A stretch of 64,000 bases of DNA, taken from NCBI RefSeq assembly GCF_036967205.1, contig NZ_CP146022.1, positions 7,378,001-7,442,000 on the forward strand, written 5' to 3'. Source of the stretch: Streptomyces sp. Q6. GTDB lineage: Bacteria; Actinomycetota; Actinomycetes; Streptomycetales; Streptomycetaceae. The position numbers and the translations under genes were made by a program. The notes under the pieces were generated by a model that was given only the letters and a program-made list of their open reading frames with translations, ran no database searches and was not told the origin of the DNA. Numbering within the stretch: position 1 is the stretch's first letter; each line of letters starts with the position of its first letter. Positions 50,413 to 61,337 of the stretch are shown here, piece by piece.

Positions 50413-52170
50413 CTGTCGACCGCCATCGTCACCGGTCAGCCGGTCCCCGGGTCGTCCCTGGAGGGCGATCTGCGGGCGCTCGGCTTCGACGTTCGGCTCG
50501 CCCCGGACGCCGCGGACGCCGAAGCGGCGCTCGCGACCGTCCCCGGCGGCCAGCGGGTCGCGGTCGTGGACGCGGGATTCGTGGGCCATGTCCACGCCCT
50601 GCGCCTCGGCCTCACCGACCCTCGCTTCAACGCCTCGGCGATCCCCGGCGCCCTCGCGGTGCTGCCCTCCACCCGGCAGGCCCTGAACCGGGCCGTCACG
50701 GAGAGCGGCATGCACCCCGACGCCGTCGCCAAGTCCCTGGAGGCGGCCGGCACCGACGTGCACCGCCCCGAGCTCGGTGACCTCGTCGCCGCGGTGCCCA
50801 CCGACCCGCAGGCCCGCAACGAGGTCCGCCAGTCCGTCGCCGCCGTCGACGACGAGGCGATCCGGCTGCGCACCGCCGTCAAGGCGCGGGACGGCTTCTT
50901 CACCACGTACTGCGTCAGCCCGTACTCCCGCTACCTCGCGCGGTGGTGCGCACGCCGCGGCCTGACCCCCAACCAGGTCACCACCGCGTCGCTGCTCACC
51001 GCGCTGATCGCGGCGGGCTGCGCGGCGACCGGCACGCGCCCCGGCTTCGTCGCCGCGGGCCTGCTCCTCCTCTTCTCCTTCGTCCTGGACTGCACGGACG
51101 GGCAGCTCGCCCGCTACTCGTTGCAGTACTCGACGCTCGGCGCCTGGCTCGACGCGACCTTCGACCGCGCCAAGGAGTACGCCTACTACGCGGGCCTCGC
51201 GCTCGGCGCGGCCAACGCCGACGGCGACGACGTGTGGGCCCTGGCCCTCGGCGCGATGGTGTTGCAGACCTGCCGGCACGTCGTCGACTTCTCCTTCAAC
51301 GAGGCGAACCACGACGCCGCGGCCAACACCAGCCCCACCGCCGCCCTCTCCGACAAGCTCGACAGCGTCGGCTGGACGGTCTGGGTGCGCCGGATGATAG
51401 TGCTGCCGATCGGCGAACGCTGGGCGCTGATCGCGATCCTCACCGCACTGACCACCCCGCGCATCACCTTCGTCGTCCTCCTCGTCGGCTGCGCGCTCGC
51501 CGCCTGCTACACGACCGCCGGGCGCCTCCTGCGCTCGCTCACCCGCAAGGCCCGCCGCACCGACCGCGCCGCACAGGCCCTCGCCGATCTCGCCGACTCG
51601 GGGCCGCTCGCGCGGCTGTTCAGCAAGGTGAAGGTGCCCGCCCCCGCCCCTGTGATCGCCGCTCTCGGCGGCGTGGCCGTCGTCACGGTGAGTGCGCTCA
51701 CGGATGTCGGCGGCACCTGGCCGATCGTCGTCGCCGCCGTGTACTGCGTCACGTCGGGCCTGGCCGTCGCCCGACCCCTCAAGGGCACCCTCGACTGGCT
51801 CGTGCCCCCGATTTTCCGGGCCTCCGAGTACCTGACCGTCCTGGTCCTCGCGGCCCGCTCGGAGGTGAACGGTGCCCTGCCCGCGGCTTTCGGGCTGGTG
51901 GCGGCGGTCGCCTACCATCACTACGACACGGTGTACCGCATTCGCGGCGGCACCGGGGCGCCCCCGCACTGGCTGGTGCGGGCGATCGGCGGGCACGAAG
52001 GCAGAACGCTGGTGGTCACGATCCTGGCCGCGCTGTTCACAACCACAGATTTCACCGTCGCGCTCACGGTCTGCGCCGTGTTCGTGGCACTCGTGGTGCT
52101 CGCCGAGAGCATCCGCTTCTGGGTCTCTGCTGGAGCACCCGCCGTACACGATGAAGGAGAACCCGCATGA
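50413..52170 (+). CDS. CDP-alcohol phosphatidyltransferase with N-terminal extension (DUF5941-type)
   Basis: The 585-residue protein has an N-terminal domain of about 150 residues (from ALGFDVRLAPDAADAEAAL) that may be a degenerate nucleotidyltransferase. The central CDP-alcohol transferase carries the complete D-x2-DG-x2-AR-x8-G-x3-D-x3-D motif (DCTDGQLARYSLQ onward, ending DATFD). A C-terminal multi-span domain of DUF5941 type follows. ATG, GTG and TTG are absent between the in-frame TGA at 50404 and GTG 50566, yet the intervening sequence is conserved-looking and AAGGAG sits 9 bases before CTG 50413. CTG is therefore proposed as the start. The gene is the first of a coupled operon divergent to galE. 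Confidence 0.78.
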   Translation: MSTAIVTGQPVPGSSLEGDLRALGFDVRLAPDAADAEAALATVPGGQRVAVVDAGFVGHVHALRLGLTDPRFNASAIPGALAVLPSTRQALNRAVTESGMHPDAVAKSLEAAGTDVHRPELGDLVAAVPTDPQARNEVRQSVAAVDDEAIRLRTAVKARDGFFTTYCVSPYSRYLARWCARRGLTPNQVTTASLLTALIAAGCAATGTRPGFVAAGLLLLFSFVLDCTDGQLARYSLQYSTLGAWLDATFDRAKEYAYYAGLALGAANADGDDVWALALGAMVLQTCRHVVDFSFNEANHDAAANTSPTAALSDKLDSVGWTVWVRRMIVLPIGERWALIAILTALTTPRITFVVLLVGCALAACYTTAGRLLRSLTRKARRTDRAAQALADLADSGPLARLFSKVKVPAPAPVIAALGGVAVVTVSALTDVGGTWPIVVAAVYCVTSGLAVARPLKGTLDWLVPPIFRASEYLTVLVLAARSEVNGALPAAFGLVAAVAYHHYDTVYRIRGGTGAPPHWLVRAIGGHEGRTLVVTILAALFTTTDFTVALTVCAVFVALVVLAESIRFWVSAGAPAVHDEGEPA

Positions 52171-52919
52171 TCGGCCTCGTCCTGGCCGCCGGCGCCGGCA
52201 GCCGGCTCCGCCCCTACACCGAGACGCTTCCCAAGGCGCTCGTGCCCGTCGTGGGCGAGGGAACCGAGAACGAGCTCTCCGTCCTCGACCTCACCCTGAA
52301 GAACTTCGCCGAGATCGGCCTCACCGAGGTCGGCATCATCGTCGGCTACCGCAAGGAGGTCGTCTACGAGCGCAAGGCAGCGCTCGAGGCGAAGTACGGC
52401 CTGAAGCTGACGCTCATCGAGAACGACGTCGCCGAGAAGTGGAACAACGCCTACTCCCTGTGGTGCGGCCGTGACGCCATCAAGCACTCGGTGATCCTCG
52501 CCAACGGCGACACCGTGCACCCGGTCTCCGTGGAGAAGACGCTGCTCGCCGCCCGCGGCGACGGCAAGAAGATCATCCTCGCCCTGGACACGGTGAAGAC
52601 CCTCGGCGAAGAGGAGATGAAGGTCGTCGTGGACCCCGACAAGGGCGTCCAGAAGATCACGAAGCTGATGGACCCCTCCGAGGCCACCGGCGAGTACATC
52701 GGCGTCACCCTCATCGAGGGCGAGGCCGCCGACGAGCTGGCCGACGCCCTGAAGGCCACGTACGAGCGTGACCCGCAGCTGTACTACGAGGACGGCTACC
52801 AGGAGCTCGTGAACCGCGGCTTCAAGGTCGACGTCGCGCCCATCGGCGATGTCCCGTGGGTCGAGATCGACAACCACGAGGACCTGGCCAAGGGGCGGGA
52901 GATCGCGTGCCAGTACTGA
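52167..52919 (+). CDS. LicC-like sugar/polyol-phosphate nucleotidyltransferase
   Basis: The 250-residue protein has the nucleotidyltransferase start GLVLAAGAGSRLRPYTETLPKAL with the G-x-G-x-R loop and Lys. ILANGDTVHP is the metal-binding Asp motif near residue 112. KWNNAYSLWCGRDA resembles phosphocholine cytidylyltransferases (LicC type). It probably joins CTP to a polyol- or choline-phosphate to make a CDP-alcohol for the transferases beside it. The ATG overlaps the previous TGA (ATGA). Confidence 0.85.
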   Translation: MIGLVLAAGAGSRLRPYTETLPKALVPVVGEGTENELSVLDLTLKNFAEIGLTEVGIIVGYRKEVVYERKAALEAKYGLKLTLIENDVAEKWNNAYSLWCGRDAIKHSVILANGDTVHPVSVEKTLLAARGDGKKIILALDTVKTLGEEEMKVVVDPDKGVQKITKLMDPSEATGEYIGVTLIEGEAADELADALKATYERDPQLYYEDGYQELVNRGFKVDVAPIGDVPWVEIDNHEDLAKGREIACQY

Positions 52920-53974
52920 CGAGGCTCATCCCCTCGCCGGTCGTCGTCGACATCCGGCCGGGAGCGCTCGACGACCTGGCCAAGGTCCTCGCCGACCAGA
53001 GGATCTCGTCGTCCACGGGGCGCCTGGCCATCGCGATCAGCGGTGGCTCGGGCGCTGCCCTGCGCACCCGCCTCGCGCCCTCGCTGCCCCGCGCCGAGTG
53101 GTTCGAGGTCGGGGGCGGCACCCTCGACGACGCCATCCAGCTCGCCGACGACATCAAGAAGGCGGGCCGTTTCGACGCCGTCGTCGGCCTCGGTGGCGGC
53201 AAGATCATCGACTGCGGCAAGTTCGCCGCGGCGCGCGTGGGCCTGCCGCTGGTCGCCGTCGCGACGAACCTGTCGCACGACGGCCTGTGCTCGCCGGTCG
53301 CGACCCTCGACAACGACGCGGGCCGCGGCAGCTACGGCGTGCCGAACCCGATCGCCGTCGTCATCGACCTCGACATCATCCGTGAGGCCCCGGCGCGCTT
53401 CGTGCGCTCCGGCATCGGTGACGCCCTGTCCAACATCTCCGCGGTCGCGGACTGGGAGCTCGCGGCCCGTGAGCGCGGCGAGGACATCGACGGTCTCGCG
53501 GCCGCCATGGCCCGCCAGGCCGGCGAGGCCGTGCTCCGGCACCCGGGCGGCGTCGGCGACGACGGCTTCCTCCAGGTGCTCGCCGAGGGCCTGGTCCTCA
53601 CCGGCATCGCCATGTCCGTGTCGGGCGACTCCCGTCCGGCGTCCGGCGCCTGCCACGAGATCAACCACGCCTTCGACCTCCTCCACCCCAAGCGCGCCGC
53701 CAGCCACGGCGAGCAGTGCGGCCTGGGCGCGGCCTTCGCGATGCACCTGCGCGGTGCTCACGAGGAGTCCCGCTACATGGCCGAGGTGCTGCGCCGCCAC
53801 GGCCTGCCCGTGCTGCCCGAGGAGATCGGCTTCACCGTGGACGAGTTCGTCAAGGTCGTGGAGTTCGCTCCGCAGACCCGGCCGGGCCGCTACACGATCC
53901 TCGAACACCTCGACCTCTCCACCGACCAGATCAGGGACGCCTACGCCGACTATGCAAAAGCCATCGGTAGCTGA
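52907..53974 (+). CDS. sn-glycerol-1-phosphate dehydrogenase-like enzyme
   Basis: The 355-residue protein belongs to the iron-containing alcohol dehydrogenase superfamily, in the AraM/EgsA-like branch. It shows VVGLGGGKIIDCGKFAAARV near residue 95, ATNLSHDGLCSPVATLDND near residue 120, and metal-binding His/Asp candidates in SGIGDALSNIS, GACHEINHAFD and ASHGEQCGLG. It likely reduces dihydroxyacetone phosphate, or a longer ketose phosphate, to the polyol phosphate. GTG 52907 has GGGAG upstream and overlaps the preceding gene by 13 bases. In archaea this enzyme sets lipid stereochemistry; here the product is unknown. Confidence 0.85.
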   Translation: MPVLTRLIPSPVVVDIRPGALDDLAKVLADQRISSSTGRLAIAISGGSGAALRTRLAPSLPRAEWFEVGGGTLDDAIQLADDIKKAGRFDAVVGLGGGKIIDCGKFAAARVGLPLVAVATNLSHDGLCSPVATLDNDAGRGSYGVPNPIAVVIDLDIIREAPARFVRSGIGDALSNISAVADWELAARERGEDIDGLAAAMARQAGEAVLRHPGGVGDDGFLQVLAEGLVLTGIAMSVSGDSRPASGACHEINHAFDLLHPKRAASHGEQCGLGAAFAMHLRGAHEESRYMAEVLRRHGLPVLPEEIGFTVDEFVKVVEFAPQTRPGRYTILEHLDLSTDQIRDAYADYAKAIGS

Positions 53975-54731
53975 GCTCCGCCCGGTCGTTCACCCCGCGG
54001 GCGTGAAGGACCGCCGGAGCGGTGAGCACTGGATGGGCCGGCTCTACATGCGCGAGATCTCGCTGCGTGTCGACCGGCACCTGGTGAACACCAAGGTCAC
54101 GCCCAACCAGCTGACCTACCTGATGACCGTCTGCGGTGTCCTCGCGGCTCCCGCGCTCCTCGTCCCGGGCATCTGGGGCGCGGTCCTCGGCGTTGTCGCG
54201 GTGCAGCTCTACCTGCTGCTCGACTGCGTCGACGGCGAGATCGCGCGGTGGCGCAAGCAGTACTCGCTCACCGGCGTCTGGATGGACCGCGTCGGCGCGT
54301 ACCTCACCGACGCCGCCGTCCTCGTCGGCTTCGGCCTGCGTGCCGCGGACCTGTGGGGCGGCGGCCGGATCGACTGGCTGTGGGCCTTCCTCGGCACGCT
54401 CGCCGCGCTCGGCGCCATCCTGATCAAGTCCGAGACGGACCTGGTCGCCGTGGCCCGCGCGCAGAGCGGCAAGGAGCAGGTCAAGGAGGCCGCGTCCGAG
54501 ATGCGCTCCTCGGGCATGGCGCTGGCCCGCAGGGCCGCCGCGATGCTCAACTTCCACCGGCTCATCCTCGGCATCGAGGCGACCCTGCTCATCCTGGTCC
54601 TCGCGATCGTGGACCAGATGCGGGGCGACCTGTTCTTCACGCGCCTCGGTGTGGCCGTCCTCGCGGGCATCGCGCTCCTCCAGACGCTGCTCCACCTCGT
54701 GTCCATCCTCGCTTCGAGCAGGCTGAAGTGA
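53952..54731 (+). CDS. Second CDP-alcohol phosphatidyltransferase
   Basis: The 259-residue membrane protein has six or so hydrophobic spans. The catalytic motif reads LDCVDGEIARWRKQ, then LTGVWMDRVGAYL. The first three Asp are in register, but the fourth Asp (D-x3-D, the general base) is replaced by Ala in DRVGA. Either this subfamily uses another residue or the enzyme differs mechanistically. It would transfer a phosphoalcohol from CDP to an alcohol acceptor. ATG 53952 overlaps the upstream gene by 23 bases. Confidence 0.82.
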   Translation: MQKPSVAELRPVVHPAGVKDRRSGEHWMGRLYMREISLRVDRHLVNTKVTPNQLTYLMTVCGVLAAPALLVPGIWGAVLGVVAVQLYLLLDCVDGEIARWRKQYSLTGVWMDRVGAYLTDAAVLVGFGLRAADLWGGGRIDWLWAFLGTLAALGAILIKSETDLVAVARAQSGKEQVKEAASEMRSSGMALARRAAAMLNFHRLILGIEATLLILVLAIVDQMRGDLFFTRLGVAVLAGIALLQTLLHLVSILASSRLK

Positions 54732-55621
54732 GCACGCCGGCACGGCAGGCGAAGGTCGGCGCGGTTGTCATCACCATGGGCAACCGGCCGGCCGAGCTGC
54801 GCGCCCTCCTCGACTCGGTCGCCAAGCAGGACGGCGCCCCGGTCGAGCTGGTCGTGGTCGGCAACGGATCACCCGTCCCGGACGTCCCCGAAGGCGTACG
54901 GACCGTCGAGCTGCCCGAGAACCTGGGCATCCCCGGCGGCCGCAACGTCGGCATCGAGGCGTTCGGCCCGTCCGGATCCGACGTCGACATCCTCATGTTC
55001 CTCGACGACGACGGCCTGCTGCCGCTCACCGACACGGCCGAGCTGTGCCGCGAGGCCTTCGCCGCCGACCCGAAGCTCGGCATCATCAGCTTCCGCATCG
55101 CCGACCCGGACACCGGCGAGACCCAGCGCCGCCACGTCCCGCGGCTGCGCGCCGCCGACCCGATGCGCTCCTCGCGCGTGACCACGTTCCTCGGCGGCGC
55201 CAACGCCGTCCGTACGCGCGTGATCGCCGAGGCCGGACCGCTGCCCGCCGAGTTCTTCTACGCCCATGAGGAGACCGATCTCGCCTGGCGTGCCCTCGAC
55301 GCGGGCTGGATGATCGACTACCGCGCCGACATGGTCCTGCACCACCCGACCACGGCCCCCTCCCGGCACGCGGTCTACCACCGCATGGTGGCCCGCAACC
55401 GGGTCTGGCTGGCCCGCCGCAACCTGCCCGCGCCGCTGATCCCCGTGTACCTCGGCGTGTGGCTGCTCCTGACCTTGGCCCGCCGTCCCTCGGGCCCGGC
55501 CCTGAAGGCCTGGCTGGGCGGTTTCAAGGAAGGCTGGACGACGCCGTGCGGCCCTCGGCGTCCGATGAAGTGGCGTACGGTGTGGCGCCTGACCCGACTG
55601 GGCCGACCTCCTGTCATCTGA
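54728..55621 (+). CDS. Glycosyltransferase family 2
   Basis: The 297-residue protein has the GT-A fold: VGAVVITMGNRPAELRALLD at the start, VVGNGSPVPDVP, the metal-binding FLDDDGLLPLT near residue 97, LGGANAVR and the catalytic-base segment YAHEETDLAWR near residue 180. A hydrophobic stretch near residue 238 may attach it to the membrane. It would add a sugar to the product of the CDP-alcohol branch. GTG 54728 overlaps the previous TGA. Confidence 0.9.
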   Translation: MSTPARQAKVGAVVITMGNRPAELRALLDSVAKQDGAPVELVVVGNGSPVPDVPEGVRTVELPENLGIPGGRNVGIEAFGPSGSDVDILMFLDDDGLLPLTDTAELCREAFAADPKLGIISFRIADPDTGETQRRHVPRLRAADPMRSSRVTTFLGGANAVRTRVIAEAGPLPAEFFYAHEETDLAWRALDAGWMIDYRADMVLHHPTTAPSRHAVYHRMVARNRVWLARRNLPAPLIPVYLGVWLLLTLARRPSGPALKAWLGGFKEGWTTPCGPRRPMKWRTVWRLTRLGRPPVI

Positions 55622-55716
55622 CAAGCTCATGTCTGAGAGCATTCGGGCCGTACCCGGTCCCTGGCTCCTCGCCTATGCCCGACCAGGCTGTGCTTTTGAA
55701 GACGAAAGTTCCCCTT

Positions 55717-56646
55717 GTGAGTGAGACAACGCATGACGGCGGTGTCGCGGTGAGCGCCGCCCCGTCGCCCGACGACGGGCTCTCCCCGGCCGAGCTCGCC
55801 GCCAAGTACGGCTTGTCCGTCAGCGGAGCGCGGCCCGGCCTGTCCGAGTACGTACGGCAGCTGTGGGGCCGACGGCACTTCATCCTCGCCTTCTCGCAGG
55901 CGAAGCTGACGGCCCAGTACAGCCAGGCCAAGCTCGGCCAGGTCTGGCAGGTGGCGACCCCCCTCCTGAACGCCCTCGTCTACTACCTGATCTTCGGCCT
56001 GATCCTGGGCGCGAACCGGGGCATGGACAAGGAGGTCTACATCCCGTTCCTGGTGACGGGTGTCTTCGTCTTCACCTTCACGCAGTCGTCCGTCATGGCG
56101 GGCGTACGCGCGATCTCCGGCAACCTGGGCCTGGTGCGCGCCCTGCACTTCCCGCGCGCCTCGCTGCCCGTCTCCTTCGCGCTCCAGCAGCTCCAGCAGC
56201 TGCTGTTCTCGATGATCGTGCTGTTCATCGTGGCGTGCGCCTTCGGCAGCTTCCCGTCCCTGTCGTGGCTGCTGATCGTTCCGGTCCTCGCGTTGCAGTT
56301 CCTCTTCAACACCGGACTCGCGCTGATCATGGCCAGGGCGGGCGCGAAGACCCCGGACCTCGCGCAGCTCATGCCGTTCGTGATGCGTACGTGGATGTAC
56401 GCGTCCGGCGTCATGTTCTCCATCCCGATCATGCTGGAGGGCAAGCCGACCTGGATCGCCGACGTCCTCCAGTGGAACCCGGCGGCGATCTACATGGACC
56501 TGATGCGGTTCGCGCTGATCGACGGCTACGGCTCCGAGAACCTGCCGCCGCACGTCTGGGCGGTCGCCCTCGGCTGGGCCGTACTGGTCGCCGTCGGCGG
56601 CTTCGTCTACTTCTGGAAGTCCGAGGAGCGGTACGGCCGTGGCTGA
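55717..56646 (+). CDS. ABC-2 type transporter permease (Wzm/TagG-like)
   Basis: The 309-residue protein has about six membrane spans in the polysaccharide-export ABC-2 fold, with LTAQYSQAKLGQVWQVATPLL near residue 68 and LQWNPAAIYMDLMRFALI near the end. It carries lipid-linked glycans or teichoic acids across the membrane. Start uncertain: GTG 55717 is chosen, but ATG 55675 would add 14 residues. It is co-transcribed with the ATPase gene, which starts 8 bases before its stop. A 95-bp gap separates it from the glycosyltransferase. Confidence 0.87.
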   Translation: MSETTHDGGVAVSAAPSPDDGLSPAELAAKYGLSVSGARPGLSEYVRQLWGRRHFILAFSQAKLTAQYSQAKLGQVWQVATPLLNALVYYLIFGLILGANRGMDKEVYIPFLVTGVFVFTFTQSSVMAGVRAISGNLGLVRALHFPRASLPVSFALQQLQQLLFSMIVLFIVACAFGSFPSLSWLLIVPVLALQFLFNTGLALIMARAGAKTPDLAQLMPFVMRTWMYASGVMFSIPIMLEGKPTWIADVLQWNPAAIYMDLMRFALIDGYGSENLPPHVWAVALGWAVLVAVGGFVYFWKSEERYGRG

Positions 56647-57427
56647 TCTCGACAAGAACCCCTCCGACGCCCGCGTTCCCACGGTCATCGCCGACGAGCT
56701 GCACATCGTGTACCGCGTCAACGGCGCCAAGACCGGCAAGGGCAGCGCGACGTCGGCACTGAGCCGCATACTCAAGCGCGGCGAGGAGCGCGGCGTGCGC
56801 AAGGTGCACGCGGTCAAGGGCGTCTCCTTCACGTCCTACCGGGGCGAGGCCATCGGCCTCATCGGCTCGAACGGCTCCGGCAAGTCGACGCTGCTGCGCG
56901 CCATCGCCGGCCTGCTCCCCGCCGAGAAGGGCAAGGTCTACACCGACGGCCAGCCCTCGCTGCTCGGTGTGAACGCGGCCCTCATGAACGACCTCACGGG
57001 CGAGCGCAACGTGATCCTCGGTGGCCTCGCCATGGGCATGTCCCGCGAGGAGATCAAGGCGCGCTACCAGGACATCGTCGACTTCTCCGGGATCAACGAG
57101 AAGGGTGACTTCATCACCCTGCCGATGCGCACCTACTCGTCCGGCATGGCGGCCCGCCTGCGGTTCTCCATCGCGGCCGCCAAGGACCACGACGTGCTGA
57201 TGATCGACGAGGCCCTGGCGACGGGTGACCGCAAGTTCCAGAAGCGCTCCGAGGCCCGCATCCGCGAGCTGCGCAAGGAGGCCGGCACGGTCTTCCTGGT
57301 GAGCCACAACAACAAGTCCATTCGCGACACCTGTGACCGCGTTCTGTGGCTGGAGCGCGGGGAACTGCGTATGGACGGTCCGACGGGCGAGGTACTCAAG
57401 GAGTACGAGAAGTTCACGGGCAAGTAA
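56639..57427 (+). CDS. ABC transporter ATPase (Wzt/TagH-like)
   Basis: The 262-residue protein has Walker A IGSNGSGKSTLLRA near residue 79, the family-typical YSSGMAARLRFSIA signature (replacing LSGGQ) near residue 165, Walker B VLMIDEALATGD near residue 188 and switch His in LVSHNNK. The RVKHAV-type N-terminus and short C-terminus match capsule or teichoic acid exporters without a carbohydrate-binding tail. It powers the permease encoded upstream. GTG 56639 overlaps by 8 bases. A strong terminator follows. Confidence 0.93.
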   Translation: MADLDKNPSDARVPTVIADELHIVYRVNGAKTGKGSATSALSRILKRGEERGVRKVHAVKGVSFTSYRGEAIGLIGSNGSGKSTLLRAIAGLLPAEKGKVYTDGQPSLLGVNAALMNDLTGERNVILGGLAMGMSREEIKARYQDIVDFSGINEKGDFITLPMRTYSSGMAARLRFSIAAAKDHDVLMIDEALATGDRKFQKRSEARIRELRKEAGTVFLVSHNNKSIRDTCDRVLWLERGELRMDGPTGEVLKEYEKFTGK

Positions 57428-57777: not shown

Positions 57778-57846
57778 ATGGCTACGGAAACTCTCCAGGT
57801 CCACGGGGCTTTTGCCGTCGTTCCGGAAGCGGACCGCACGCGGTGA
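57778..57846 (+). CDS. Candidate 22-residue leader peptide coupled to hpnC
   Basis: ATG 57778 (GGGAG 10 bases upstream) opens a frame MATETLQVHGAFAVVPEADR followed by TR and a TGA at 57844-57846. This stop overlaps the GTG start of hpnC (57843-57845) in a GTGA, the same coupling used between most later genes. A GTG at 57769 is also possible. It may be a translational-coupling leader or a true microprotein. Confidence 0.4.
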   Translation: MATETLQVHGAFAVVPEADRTR

Positions 57847-58742
57847 CCGCATCCCGCCCGCGCCCCGGTACCCCGGAGAGCGCCACCCTGGACAAGGCCG
57901 CCGACGAGAACTTCCCGGTGGCCCCCTTCTTCCTGCCGCGCGCCTGGCGCGACGACCTGATGGCCGTGTACGGGTACGCGCGCCTCGTCGACGACATCGG
58001 TGACGGCGACCTCGCGCCCGGCGGCGCGGACGCCCGTTTCCTCGGTGTCTCACCCGATCGGGCCGACGACCGGCTCGCGATGCTGGACGCCTTCGAAGCG
58101 GATCTGCGCCGGGTCTTCGACTCGACCCCCAGACATCCGCTCCTGAAGGCCTTGCAGCCCACCGTCCGCCGCCGCTCCCTGACCCCCGAGCCGTTCCTCG
58201 GCCTCATCCAGGCCAACCGCCAGGACCAGCTCGTCGCGCGCTACGAGACGTACGACGACCTCCTCGCGTACTGCGAGCTCTCCGCCAACCCGGTCGGCCG
58301 CCTCGTCCTCGCCATCACCGGCACCGCGACCCCCGAGCGGATCCGCCGCTCGGACGCCGTCTGCACGGGCCTCCAGATCGTCGAGCACCTCCAGGACGTG
58401 GCCGAGGACCTGGGGCGGGACCGCGTCTACCTGCCCGCCGAGGACATGAAAGAGTTCCACGTGCAGGAGTCCGATCTCGCCCTGGCGACGGCGGGCGCGT
58501 CGGTGCGCGCCCTGGTCGCGTTCGAAGCGGAACGCGCCCTCGGGCTCCTGAATGAAGGCACCCCCCTCGTGGGTAGCGTCCACGGCAGGTTGAAGCTGCT
58601 GCTGGCCGGGTTCGTGGCAGGGGGGAAGGCGGCGGTGCACGCGATCACCGCCGTTTCGTACGACGTCCTTCCTGGACCACCCAAACCCACCAAGCTCCGG
58701 CTATTGCGCGAGGTGGGAGCGACTCTGCGAGGAGAGGGGTGA
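57843..58742 (+). CDS. hpnC: Squalene synthase HpnC
   Basis: The 299-residue prenyl-transferase-like protein has the Asp-rich first motif ARLVDDIGD (residues 47-54) and the second motif HLQDVAEDLGRDRVYLP near residue 182. In the three-step hopanoid route, HpnC converts presqualene diphosphate, made by HpnD, to hydroxysqualene. It lacks a membrane anchor. The start is GTG 57843. HpnC is the first structural gene of the operon and overlaps HpnD by 4 bases. Confidence 0.93.
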   Translation: MTASRPRPGTPESATLDKAADENFPVAPFFLPRAWRDDLMAVYGYARLVDDIGDGDLAPGGADARFLGVSPDRADDRLAMLDAFEADLRRVFDSTPRHPLLKALQPTVRRRSLTPEPFLGLIQANRQDQLVARYETYDDLLAYCELSANPVGRLVLAITGTATPERIRRSDAVCTGLQIVEHLQDVAEDLGRDRVYLPAEDMKEFHVQESDLALATAGASVRALVAFEAERALGLLNEGTPLVGSVHGRLKLLLAGFVAGGKAAVHAITAVSYDVLPGPPKPTKLRLLREVGATLRGEG

Positions 58743-59689
58743 GCAGAACCGTGGAGTCTGACCAGCAGATGTCGGCACCGGTGCTCGCCGCATACAGCTA
58801 CTGCGAGACGGTCACCGGCCAGCAGGCACGGAACTTCGCCTACGGGATCCGGCTGCTGCCGACCGCCAAGCGGCGGGCCATGTCGGCGGTGTACGCGTTC
58901 TCGCGCCGTGTCGACGACATCGGTGACGGCACGCTGGCGCCCGACGTCAAGGCGCTGCGGCTCGACGAGACCCGGGCGCTGCTCGCGCGGGTCCAGAACG
59001 GCAAGGTCGAGGAGGACGACACCGATCCGGTGGCCGTCGCGCTCGCCCATGCCGCCGACCGCTTCCCGATCCCGCTCGGCGGGCTCGACGAACTCATCGA
59101 CGGGGTCCTGATGGACCTGCGCGGCGAGACGTACGAGACCTGGGACGACCTGAAGGTGTACTGCCGCTGTGTCGCGGGAGCCATCGGACGGGTCTCCCTG
59201 GGCGTGTTCGGCGCGGAACCGGGGGCGCGCGGCGCCGACCGTGCGCCCGAGTACGCGGACACACTCGGGCTCGCGCTCCAACTGACCAACATCCTCCGGG
59301 ACGTGCGCGAGGACGCCGCCGACGGTCGCACCTACCTGCCCGCTGACGACCTCGCCAAGTTCGGCTGCTCGGCCGGGTTCGACGGGCCGACACCGCCGCC
59401 CGGCTCGGACTTCGCCGGCCTCGTGCACTTCGAAGTGCGGCGCGCCCGCGCGCTGTTCGCCGAGGGGTACAAGCTGCTACCCCTGCTCGACCGGCGTTCC
59501 GGCGCCTGCGTCGCCGCCATGGCCGGCATCTACCGCCGCCTGCTCGACCGCATCGAGCGCGAGCCGGAGGCCGTGCTCCGCGGCCGCGTCTCGCTGCCCG
59601 GACACGAGAAGGCGTACGTCGCCGTGCGCGGCCTGTCCGGGCTCGACGCGCGCACGGTCTCCCGCACCGCCCTCAGGAGGCGCGCCTGA
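58739..59689 (+). CDS. hpnD: Presqualene diphosphate synthase HpnD
   Basis: The 316-residue protein has FSRRVDDIGDG (residues 55-64) as the first Asp motif and the second motif LTNILRDVREDAADGRTYLP near residue 182. It condenses two farnesyl diphosphates to presqualene diphosphate. The sequence is related to HpnC but keeps a longer C-terminus ending with Arg-rich ALRRRA. GTG 58739 overlaps the HpnC stop. Its own TGA overlaps the next gene's ATG. Confidence 0.94.
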   Translation: MSRTVESDQQMSAPVLAAYSYCETVTGQQARNFAYGIRLLPTAKRRAMSAVYAFSRRVDDIGDGTLAPDVKALRLDETRALLARVQNGKVEEDDTDPVAVALAHAADRFPIPLGGLDELIDGVLMDLRGETYETWDDLKVYCRCVAGAIGRVSLGVFGAEPGARGADRAPEYADTLGLALQLTNILRDVREDAADGRTYLPADDLAKFGCSAGFDGPTPPPGSDFAGLVHFEVRRARALFAEGYKLLPLLDRRSGACVAAMAGIYRRLLDRIEREPEAVLRGRVSLPGHEKAYVAVRGLSGLDARTVSRTALRRRA

Positions 59690-59859
59690 TGGGCACCACC
59701 GGTCTCGGTGCAGCGAGGAACGCGAAGCGGCGGGCAACCCTCCGGCGCGACGCGGCGTCCCTGCATGCAACGGTCGGCCGCGTGTTCGTCACTTCTGTCG
59801 AACCCCGCCGCACCCCGGCCGTACGCACCATCGGCACCGCCTCGGGGGAGGGCGCATGA
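59689..59859 (+). CDS. Small DUF6380-like protein within the hopanoid operon
   Basis: ATG 59689 shares one base with the hpnD stop and is preceded by AGGAGG. The 56-residue peptide is Arg-rich, with RNAKRRATLRRDAASLHATVG near residue 10. The TGA at 59857 overlaps the ATG of hpnE (ATGA). The double coupling and strong ribosome site suggest a real gene. It resembles the DUF6380 small proteins of Streptomyces. Function is unknown; basic residues could contact phospholipid or RNA. Confidence 0.7.
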   Translation: MGTTGLGAARNAKRRATLRRDAASLHATVGRVFVTSVEPRRTPAVRTIGTASGEGA

Positions 59860-61337
59860 GCAACGGGAACACGGGACCCGAGGGACCCGACGCGGACGAC
59901 GCCGCGGCCCGACAACGGCCCACCGCGGTGGTCATCGGCGGTGGGCTCGCGGGTATCACCGCCGCGCTCTCGCTCGCCGACGGCGGCGTCGACGTCACGC
60001 TCCTGGAGGGCAGGCCCCGGCTGGGCGGGCTCGCCTTCTCCTTCAAGCGCGGCGACCTCACCGTCGACAACGGCCAGCACGTGTACCTGCGCTGCTGCAC
60101 CGCCTACCGCTGGTTCCTGGACCGCGTCGACGGGGCGTCGCTCGCCCCCTTGCAGGAACGTCTCGACGTGCCGGTGCTCGACGCGGAGAAGAACCGCCTC
60201 GGGCGACTGCGGCGCACGGCGCTGCCCGTACCGCTGCACCTGGCGAAGAGCCTGGCGACCTACCCGCATCTGTCGCTGGCCGAGCGGGCTAACGTCGGCC
60301 GTGCCGCGCTCGCCCTCAAGGGCCTCGACCTCACCGATCCGGCGCTCGACGAGCGGGACTTCGGCTCCTGGCTGGCCGAGCACGGTCAGTCGCAGCGGGC
60401 CATCGAGGCGCTGTGGGACCTGGTCGGTGTCGCGACCCTGAACGCGGTGGCGGGGGAGGCCTCACTGGGCCTGGCCGCCATGGTCTTCAAGACCGGGCTG
60501 CTGTCCGACCCCGGTGCCGCCGACATCGGCTGGGCCCAGGTGCCCCTCGGTGATCTCCATGACACTCTCGCCCGCAAGGCGCTCGACTCCGCGGGCGTAC
60601 GCATCGGACTCCGTACACGCGTCACCTCCATCTCCCGTACGGAGAACGGGCGTTGGGCCGTCGAGGTTCCCGAGGGTTCCGACACTTCCGGCCAGATCCT
60701 CACCGCCGACACCGTCGTACTCGCGGTGGCGCAGCGCGAGGCGCACGACCTGTTGCCCGACGGCGCGCTCGACGACAAGGGGCGGCTGCTCGACATCGGG
60801 ACCGCGCCGATCCTGAACCTGCACGTCGTCTACGACCGCAAGGTCCTCAAGCGGCCCTTCTTCACGGCGCTCGGCTCCCCGGTGCAGTGGGTCTTCGACC
60901 GCACCGACGCGTCGGGCCTGTTGAGAGGCGGGCCCGAAGGGCCTGCGAACAAGGACGGTGGCGCGCGACAGGCGGGGCAGTACCTGGCGGTGTCGCAGTC
61001 GGCCGCCCAGGACGAGATCGACGCCCCCGTCGCCGTTCTGCGGGAGCGCTACCTCCCCGAGCTGGAGCGGCTGCTGCCCGCCGCGCGCGGCGCCGGTGTC
61101 CGCGACTTCTTCGTCACCCGGGAGCGGACGGCGACGTTCGCGCCGACCCCGGGCGTCGGCGCCCTGCGGCCGTCCGCCCGCACCAATGCCCCCGGCCTCT
61201 ACCTGGCCGGCGCGTGGACCGCCACCGGGTGGCCCGCGACCATGGAAAGCGCCGTGCGCAGCGGTGCGTCCGCGGCGGACGCGGCGCTCGCCGCACTCGG
61301 CCGCCCGCGCGGCCATCTGTACCGGGAGGCGGCGTGA
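59856..61337 (+). CDS. hpnE: Hydroxysqualene dehydroxylase HpnE
   Basis: The 493-residue FAD enzyme begins with VVIGGGLAGITAALSLADGG near residue 25, the dinucleotide-binding motif, then RLGGLAFSF and DNGQHVYLRCCTAYRWFL. It ends with APGLYLAGAWTATGWPATMESAVRSG. It reduces hydroxysqualene to squalene in the last step of the HpnCDE route. Residues 1-22 form a hydrophilic leader. ATG 59856 overlaps the microprotein gene, and its stop overlaps a GTG of the next gene. Confidence 0.93.
   Translation: MSNGNTGPEGPDADDAAARQRPTAVVIGGGLAGITAALSLADGGVDVTLLEGRPRLGGLAFSFKRGDLTVDNGQHVYLRCCTAYRWFLDRVDGASLAPLQERLDVPVLDAEKNRLGRLRRTALPVPLHLAKSLATYPHLSLAERANVGRAALALKGLDLTDPALDERDFGSWLAEHGQSQRAIEALWDLVGVATLNAVAGEASLGLAAMVFKTGLLSDPGAADIGWAQVPLGDLHDTLARKALDSAGVRIGLRTRVTSISRTENGRWAVEVPEGSDTSGQILTADTVVLAVAQREAHDLLPDGALDDKGRLLDIGTAPILNLHVVYDRKVLKRPFFTALGSPVQWVFDRTDASGLLRGGPEGPANKDGGARQAGQYLAVSQSAAQDEIDAPVAVLRERYLPELERLLPAARGAGVRDFFVTRERTATFAPTPGVGALRPSARTNAPGLYLAGAWTATGWPATMESAVRSGASAADAALAALGRPRGHLYREAA

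Follow-up and report, generated by a model that had tools for sequence, protein, structure and literature searches.

A seven-gene operon of Streptomyces sp. Q6 as a putative CDP-glycerol source for a teichoic-acid-like surface molecule

The stretch of DNA analysed here, called the window, comprises 64,000 nucleotides of the 8.95 Mb genome of Streptomyces sp. Q6 (contig NZ_CP146022.1, positions 7378001–7442000), and the coordinates of the locus are given within it. Positions 50413 to 57427 carry an operon of seven genes on one strand (+), denoted g1 to g7, which a preliminary description made from the DNA letters had read as a largely overlapping set combining cytidine diphosphate (CDP)-alcohol enzymes, a dehydrogenase, a family 2 glycosyltransferase (GT2) and an ATP-binding cassette (ABC) exporter. 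Open reading frame (ORF) calls confirm this layout, with overlaps at five of the six junctions (4, 13, 23, 4 and 8 bases) and a sole gap of ~95 bases between g5 and g6, and Pfam supports each family assignment: CDP-OH_P_transf and DUF5941 in g1, NTP_transferase in g2, Fe-ADH_2 in g3, CDP-OH_P_transf in g4, Glycos_transf_2 in g5, ABC2_membrane in g6 and ABC_tran in g7. None of the seven proteins reached an NCBIfam cut-off among the models shown (the best 25 of 181 in the case of g7). Our analysis concerns what this operon may make, with g2 and g3 as the candidate source of CDP-glycerol.

g3 (52907–53974) is a relative of the sn-glycerol-1-phosphate (G1P) dehydrogenases of the AraM/EgsA type, as judged from Pfam, NCBIfam and motifs. 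It scores 229 bits on the G1P dehydrogenase model NF002022, below the equivalog cut-off of 413, compared with 90 bits on the glycerol dehydrogenase model and 67, 53 and 42 bits on the next three. Its solved relatives are G1P dehydrogenases (E 2e-42), and the conserved stretch aligns with 4rgq. Among 15 sequences, His240, His244 and His256 do not vary, and Asp162 is conserved in 14 (Glu in L075); we take these conserved Asp and His residues to be metal ligands. The RPxSG...HG(E/D) motifs are present as well. By similarity g3 stands much nearer to the G1P dehydrogenases than to dehydrogenases of other kinds, which upholds the earlier label "G1P-dehydrogenase-like" at the level of resemblance, short of the equivalog threshold. 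The adjoining g2 (52167–52919), placed by the same three lines of evidence, is a cytidylyltransferase-type nucleotidyltransferase resembling LicC and IPCT; its solved relative is LicC, a cytidine triphosphate (CTP):phosphocholine cytidylyltransferase (E 4e-11), and the motifs GAGxRLxP...PK, NGD and WxExD are invariant across 19 sequences. On the IPCT/DIPPS model NF041135, g2, g1 and g4 all score 48–55 bits, under the cut-off of 580. A CDP-glycerol source formed by g3 and g2 is the best-supported part of our interpretation, and since g3 belongs to the G1P dehydrogenase family, the product would probably have the sn-1 configuration.

The pairing of g2 with g3 is nearly fixed. In a set of named loci, which represents the best 80 of 579 matches from one scan and is biased toward the query's relatives (Nocardiopsis, Streptomonospora, Actinomadura, Nonomuraea, Streptosporangium and other genera), g2 lies immediately upstream of g3 in 80 of 80 cases, the run g2-g3-g4-g5 is contiguous in 76, and g5 follows g4 in 76. 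DUF5941 was labelled as a stand-alone gene 71 times in these loci, including most of those of the Streptosporangiales type. The gene set, for which the preliminary description had suggested a search across actinomycetes, was also followed in a class sample of 148 genomes (13 of the own genus; g3 counted at E<=1e-20): g3 occurs in 35 and g4 in 47, each in 13/13 genomes of the own genus, and DUF5941 in 12 of 197 phylum genomes, the own genus's 8 included. Within this sample g2 and g3 are adjacent in 18 of 21 loci, the exceptions being L075, L076 (at the edge of a contig) and L092 (an additional copy), and g5 adjoins g4 in 23 of 31. The gene set exceeds chance grouping, because g3 and g4 are present throughout the genus sample and the g1-to-g5 order is retained in several other families.

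Two modules seem to be combined here, g2-g3 on the one hand and g1/g4/g5/exporter on the other, as each occurs without the other: at L083, L085 and L093 the g2-g3 pair has no labelled g4 or g5 alongside, and in other families g4, often together with g5 and the exporter, is found without g2-g3. In other classes of the phylum, four genomes with close g3 orthologues keep g3-g4-g5 together in 4/4 cases and g2 in 3/4, with g1 plus DUF5941 in two and the exporter nearby in two. Three more distant g3 homologues of another class (L193–L195) have no g4 or g5 alongside, and a weak g2-like match was seen only at L195. One cluster with g1, g4, g5 and the exporter and without g2-g3 (L057:12853-15209) encodes a Stealth-family protein and an NTP_transf_3 protein, which may point to another activated phosphate. 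At L070 and L071, g1, g4 and the exporter occur without g3 and with one or two NTP_transf_3 proteins near, possibly alternative cytidylyltransferases. Some genus genomes have a second g3 (L092) or a second g2-g3 pair (L093), both adjoining an RNase E/G gene; the L092 copy of g3 lies ~7 kb from TagF matches.

Prompted by TagF-type genes near members of the gene set at L073, L074 and L085, we counted TagF (PF04464-type polymerase; strong match at E<1e-60) and TagD (TIGR01518; clear match at >=100 bits). The genome of Streptomyces sp. Q6 has eight TagF-type matches, all outside the operon, and no TagD match at E<=1e-5. Across the 148 class genomes, 51 have strong TagF, 35 have g3 and 11 have TagD at >=100 bits, the curated TIGR01518 cut-off being reached in none of the 148. 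Strong TagF is found in 34/35 genomes with g3 and in 17/113 without it (p 1e-19), or, at the level of genera, in 15/16 and 11/54 (p 1e-7), both values being uncorrected for kinship. Among g4-bearing genomes TagF is present in 32/32 with g3 and in 5/15 without g3, indicating that TagF tracks g3 and not g4. g3 and TagD do not co-occur in this sample (TagD at >=100 bits in 0/35 g3 genomes), such that the 51 TagF genomes split into 34 with g3 only, 6 with TagD only and 11 with neither. TagD-model matches in 7/13 genomes of the own genus, the best at 65.6 bits (cut-off 165.4), were treated as other nucleotidyltransferases.

In a few genomes g3 and TagF also lie close together. At L085, g2, g3, Wzm, Wzt and a TagF-type polymerase form one same-strand run; g2-g3 is close to TagF in L073, G223 and G295, and TagF-type genes stand near g2-g3 or g1/g4/g5 at L073, L074 and L085. 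The g3–TagF distance in the 35 genomes was within 7.1 kb in six cases, G208 and G252 among them on weak or partial TagF matches; TagF positions were entered for 13 of the 35, and the rest, checked by eye, were on other contigs or far away. TagF labels placed upstream in the named loci were withdrawn, since a query with the glycerophosphotransferase domain matched in 0/80 and the labels had stemmed from the GT2 half of the original query. Ribitol supply was considered for the 11 TagF genomes with neither g3 nor TagD: PF01128, scanned in these and five other genomes, gave no match in the 11 within 100 kb of TagF on the same contig. In G232 and G244, two of the five other genomes, PF01128 matched partially at ~2 kb or less from a weak TagF match. 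At L188:6635-10356, in a genome of a different class, <1 kb separates TagF from a g3 homologue that has a weakly g2-like stretch, the two genes being on opposite strands.

The exporter provides a second connection to TagF. g6 (55717–56646, with an alternative start at 55675) is probably a Wzm/TagG-type permease and g7 (56639–57427) a Wzt/TagH-type ATPase, both assigned from Pfam, NCBIfam and a paralogue. The best NCBIfam model for g6 is a galactan exporter permease (52 bits, under cut-off); for g7, TagH is the best of 181 matches (182 bits, under the cut-off of 320). The same genome encodes Wzm/Wzt paralogues with 69% identity to g6 and 80% to g7 (L179:5920-15222), next to two PF04464 (TagF) proteins and a GT2, where no homologue of g2 or g3 was labelled. 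A second permease occurs in 12/13 genus genomes and, compared by eye, lies within 8 kb of a TagF match in 11; in G313 the sole TagF match is on a contig other than that of the second permease. Because g6/g7 are so similar to the TagF-side exporter, their predicted product is suggested to be teichoic-acid-like or a glycolipid bearing glycerol phosphate.

The remaining enzymes would act between activation and export. g1 (50413–52170), assigned from Pfam, NCBIfam and solved relatives, consists of an N-terminal part (residues ~1–150), an intact CDP-alcohol phosphotransferase core (~160–380) and DUF5941 (384–585; nucleotides 51559–52170). CDP-alcohol phosphotransferases carry a four-Asp motif, and in g1, which passes the PF01066 cut-off, this motif is intact in 17/17 sequences of >=380 amino acids (the window's own included, shorter pieces left out). 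In g4 (53952–54731), placed by Pfam and alignment, PF01066 is likewise over cut-off and the fourth Asp is replaced, here by Ala. The solved relatives of both are AF2299 and IPCT-DIPPS. Structural modelling indicates that DUF5941 is a cryptic CDP-alcohol phosphotransferase fold from which the catalytic Asp motif is absent; we found no paper on this domain in the open literature, subscription papers being outside the search. In alignment the N-terminal part of g1 has no GxGxR nucleotide-binding loop. A degenerate cytidylyltransferase was suspected in this part but is not claimed: the Pfam NTP_transf_3 match (E 1e-4) was under cut-off and came from one relative, profile comparison with g2 gave a probability of 1.4%, and the model confidence (pLDDT) there is ~40. 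g5 (54728–55621) is a family 2 glycosyltransferase by Pfam and synteny.

Taken together, these observations suggest, with a probability of roughly 0.55, that the operon follows an unusual route, through g3 and g2, to CDP-glycerol for a teichoic-acid-like surface molecule, and that in the class Actinomycetes this route also feeds TagF. In the proposed sequence of steps, g3 would reduce dihydroxyacetone phosphate to sn-glycerol-1-phosphate, as expected from its family, and g2, given its fixed pairing with g3, would convert G1P and CTP to CDP-1-glycerol, the opposite enantiomer to the usual CDP-3-glycerol. From this donor g1 and g4, both membrane enzymes, may then move glycerol phosphate onto a lipid-linked acceptor, g5 would add a sugar, and g6/g7 would export the product. 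Within the class, CDP-glycerol from g2/g3 could additionally supply TagF polymerases encoded elsewhere, replacing TagD; the co-occurrence pattern favours such use inside the class only. The scheme of building, CDP-activation, transfer, glycosylation and export offered in the preliminary description gains partial support from the gene families, the synteny and the TagF-linked exporter paralogue. A bolder extension, to which we give somewhat short of even odds, is that many actinomycetes build cytoplasmic glycerol teichoic acids from CDP-1-glycerol, so that wall and lipid teichoic acids would both have the mirror-image configuration to the wall polymer of Bacillus; in the literature covered, g2 would then be the first cytidylyltransferase gene identified whose product prefers G1P, g1 and g4 might prime or extend a teichoic-acid-type chain, and DUF5941 might serve as a built-in non-catalytic partner domain.

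Several observations weigh against this interpretation. PF04464/TagF is absent from the operon (Pfam scan) and from all 80 named loci. Other CDP-polyol sources exist, because 11 of the 51 TagF genomes lack both g3 and a clear TagD. g4 may use a donor other than CDP-glycerol, as 15 of the 47 genomes that carry it have no g3. Outside the class, 28 genomes have g3-like matches (E<=1e-20) and six have strong TagF, with both in only two (G117 and G173), and TagF is found in 1/4 genomes with close g3 orthologues. As for the transferases, g4 passes its Pfam cut-off, yet the fourth Asp is present in 0/31 sequences (24 His, 7 Ala), and the top NCBIfam model for g1 is archaetidylinositol phosphate synthase (64.5 bits, cut-off 180), whose family takes a CDP-lipid as donor. 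Nor are we aware of a CDP-alcohol phosphotransferase with polymerase activity. Finally, S. verticillus was reported to be without lipoteichoic acid (LTA) (PMC3196553), while g3 is present in all 13 genus genomes, S. verticillus not being among them.

The putative route resembles the B. subtilis tag pathway for poly(glycerol-3-phosphate) (TagD, TagB/TagF, TagGH) in the CDP-glycerol donor, the cytoplasmic assembly and the two-component ABC exporter, whose paralogue stands beside TagF; it differs in having a dehydrogenase and a cytidylyltransferase of another family for TagD, in its CDP-alcohol phosphotransferases, and in the expected sn-1 unit. With LTA of the LtaS type it would share an sn-1 glycerol-phosphate surface polymer, the B. 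subtilis wall polymer being sn-3 and LTA sn-1, with GlpQ cleaving the sn-3 form and not the sn-1 form (PMC7086022), but there phosphatidylglycerol supplies the unit extracellularly, whereas the operon would use CDP-1-glycerol inside the cell. S. hygroscopicus and, preliminarily, S. coelicolor have poly(glycerol phosphate) LTA and no clear LtaS, and an overlap with wall polymer synthesis via tagB/tagF orthologues was suggested (PMC3196553). CDP-1-glycerol was described as likely absent from bacteria and as needed for archaeal glycerophosphoinositol, with an unidentified Archaeoglobus activity preferring G1P cited; of two TagF-like capsule polymerases, Cps7D formed polymer from G1P in vitro and Cps3D alone did not (PMC8262930). 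The synteny itself was named in Streptomyces among clusters linked to teichoic acid biosynthesis (PMC13118837). We found no description of a CDP-glycerol pathway of the g3/g2 type in the excerpts and open literature searched, subscription papers lying outside that scope.

Among other explanations, the most serious, though in our view unlikely, is that the operon works alone, with g2/g3 supplying CDP-glycerol or another CDP-polyol only to g1 and g4, which would modify a glycolipid of the membrane, or a short glycan, for export by g6/g7, while TagF uses a different donor. The other-class orthologues described above, which keep g4 and g5 and mostly g2 with TagF in one genome of four, fit this explanation, as does the resemblance of g1 and g4 to AF2299 and IPCT-DIPPS. 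Archaeoglobus IPCT-DIPPS, like the synthesis of glycerophosphoinositol in archaea, combines a cytidylyltransferase and a CDP-alcohol phosphotransferase of the same families; the product is a solute, a small phosphodiester in the case of IPCT-DIPPS, and there is no exporter and no GT2. The g1 N-terminal part differs in lacking the GxGxR loop. The strong g3–TagF link within the class, the position of g2-g3 beside TagF at L085 and near it in L073, G223 and G295, and the lack of a TagD match in this genome argue instead for the broader supply of TagF.

Less probable is that g3 or g2 acts on another polyol phosphate, e.g. inositol or pentitol phosphate, giving a different CDP-alcohol polymer or a phosphoinositol-type compound. 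The shared NF041135 matches of g2, g1 and g4 and the g3 score below the NF002022 cut-off would be consistent with this, and PF04464 also includes polymerases for other polyols; on the other side stand the much closer relationship of g3 to G1P dehydrogenases and the co-occurrence of TagF-type glycerophosphate polymerases. At least as improbable is that g1 and g4 use CDP-diacylglycerol like phosphatidylinositol-phosphate synthase (PIPS), the cluster making a phospholipid headgroup. The archaetidylinositol phosphate synthase match of g1 and the scores of g1 and g4 on the PIPS model (42–49 bits), all under cut-off, point in this direction, and structural models of DUF5941 and g1 also match PIP synthases. 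The presence of a cytidylyltransferase is, however, fixed, and among solved structures the sequences of the two transferases match AF2299 best, with E 3e-8 and 3e-13 compared with 3e-5 and 2e-3 for PIPS. Supply of G1P for archaeal-type ether lipids, the role that the preliminary description had noted for archaea and that would parallel the B. subtilis AraM-PcrB pathway with its bacterial G1P dehydrogenase, is highly improbable, as PcrB/GGGPS (PF01884) matched in 0/41 genomes of the genus sample (controls 7/14 positive) and the operon of g3 has CDP-alcohol enzymes and an exporter and no prenyl ether enzymes. The lack of GGGPS matches does not fit the genus-wide listing of Streptomyces as having species with G1PDH, GGGPS and DGGGPS homologues, for which archaeal-like lipids were proposed as possible (PMC6431249).

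If CDP-glycerol does arise from g3 and g2, the operon provides a testable explanation of how glycerol is activated for poly(glycerol phosphate) in actinomycetes that have no TagD; it may also explain how they make LTA without LtaS, a question left by PMC3196553. Should the sn-1 configuration hold, the sn-3 rule for cytoplasmic wall polymers would fail in a large actinomycete group. Bacterial G1P dehydrogenases would also gain a role beyond archaeal-type lipids. DUF5941 gains a model-based fold assignment.

The start of g1 at 50413 is inferred. The codon there is CTG, and the first listed ATG, GTG or TTG is at 50566. A rare start codon is likely, because AAGGAG stands 9 bases ahead of the CTG and the aligned first residue of the relatives at L089 and L091 is Leu, which the ORF caller could give only as a TTG start. 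Upstream of g1 the other strand encodes a galE-like epimerase. Directly downstream of the operon, at 57843–61337, are genes that we read as presumed hpnC, hpnD and hpnE; by similarity, such genes also follow the operon at L089–L091. crtB was named within the same synteny (PMC13118837).

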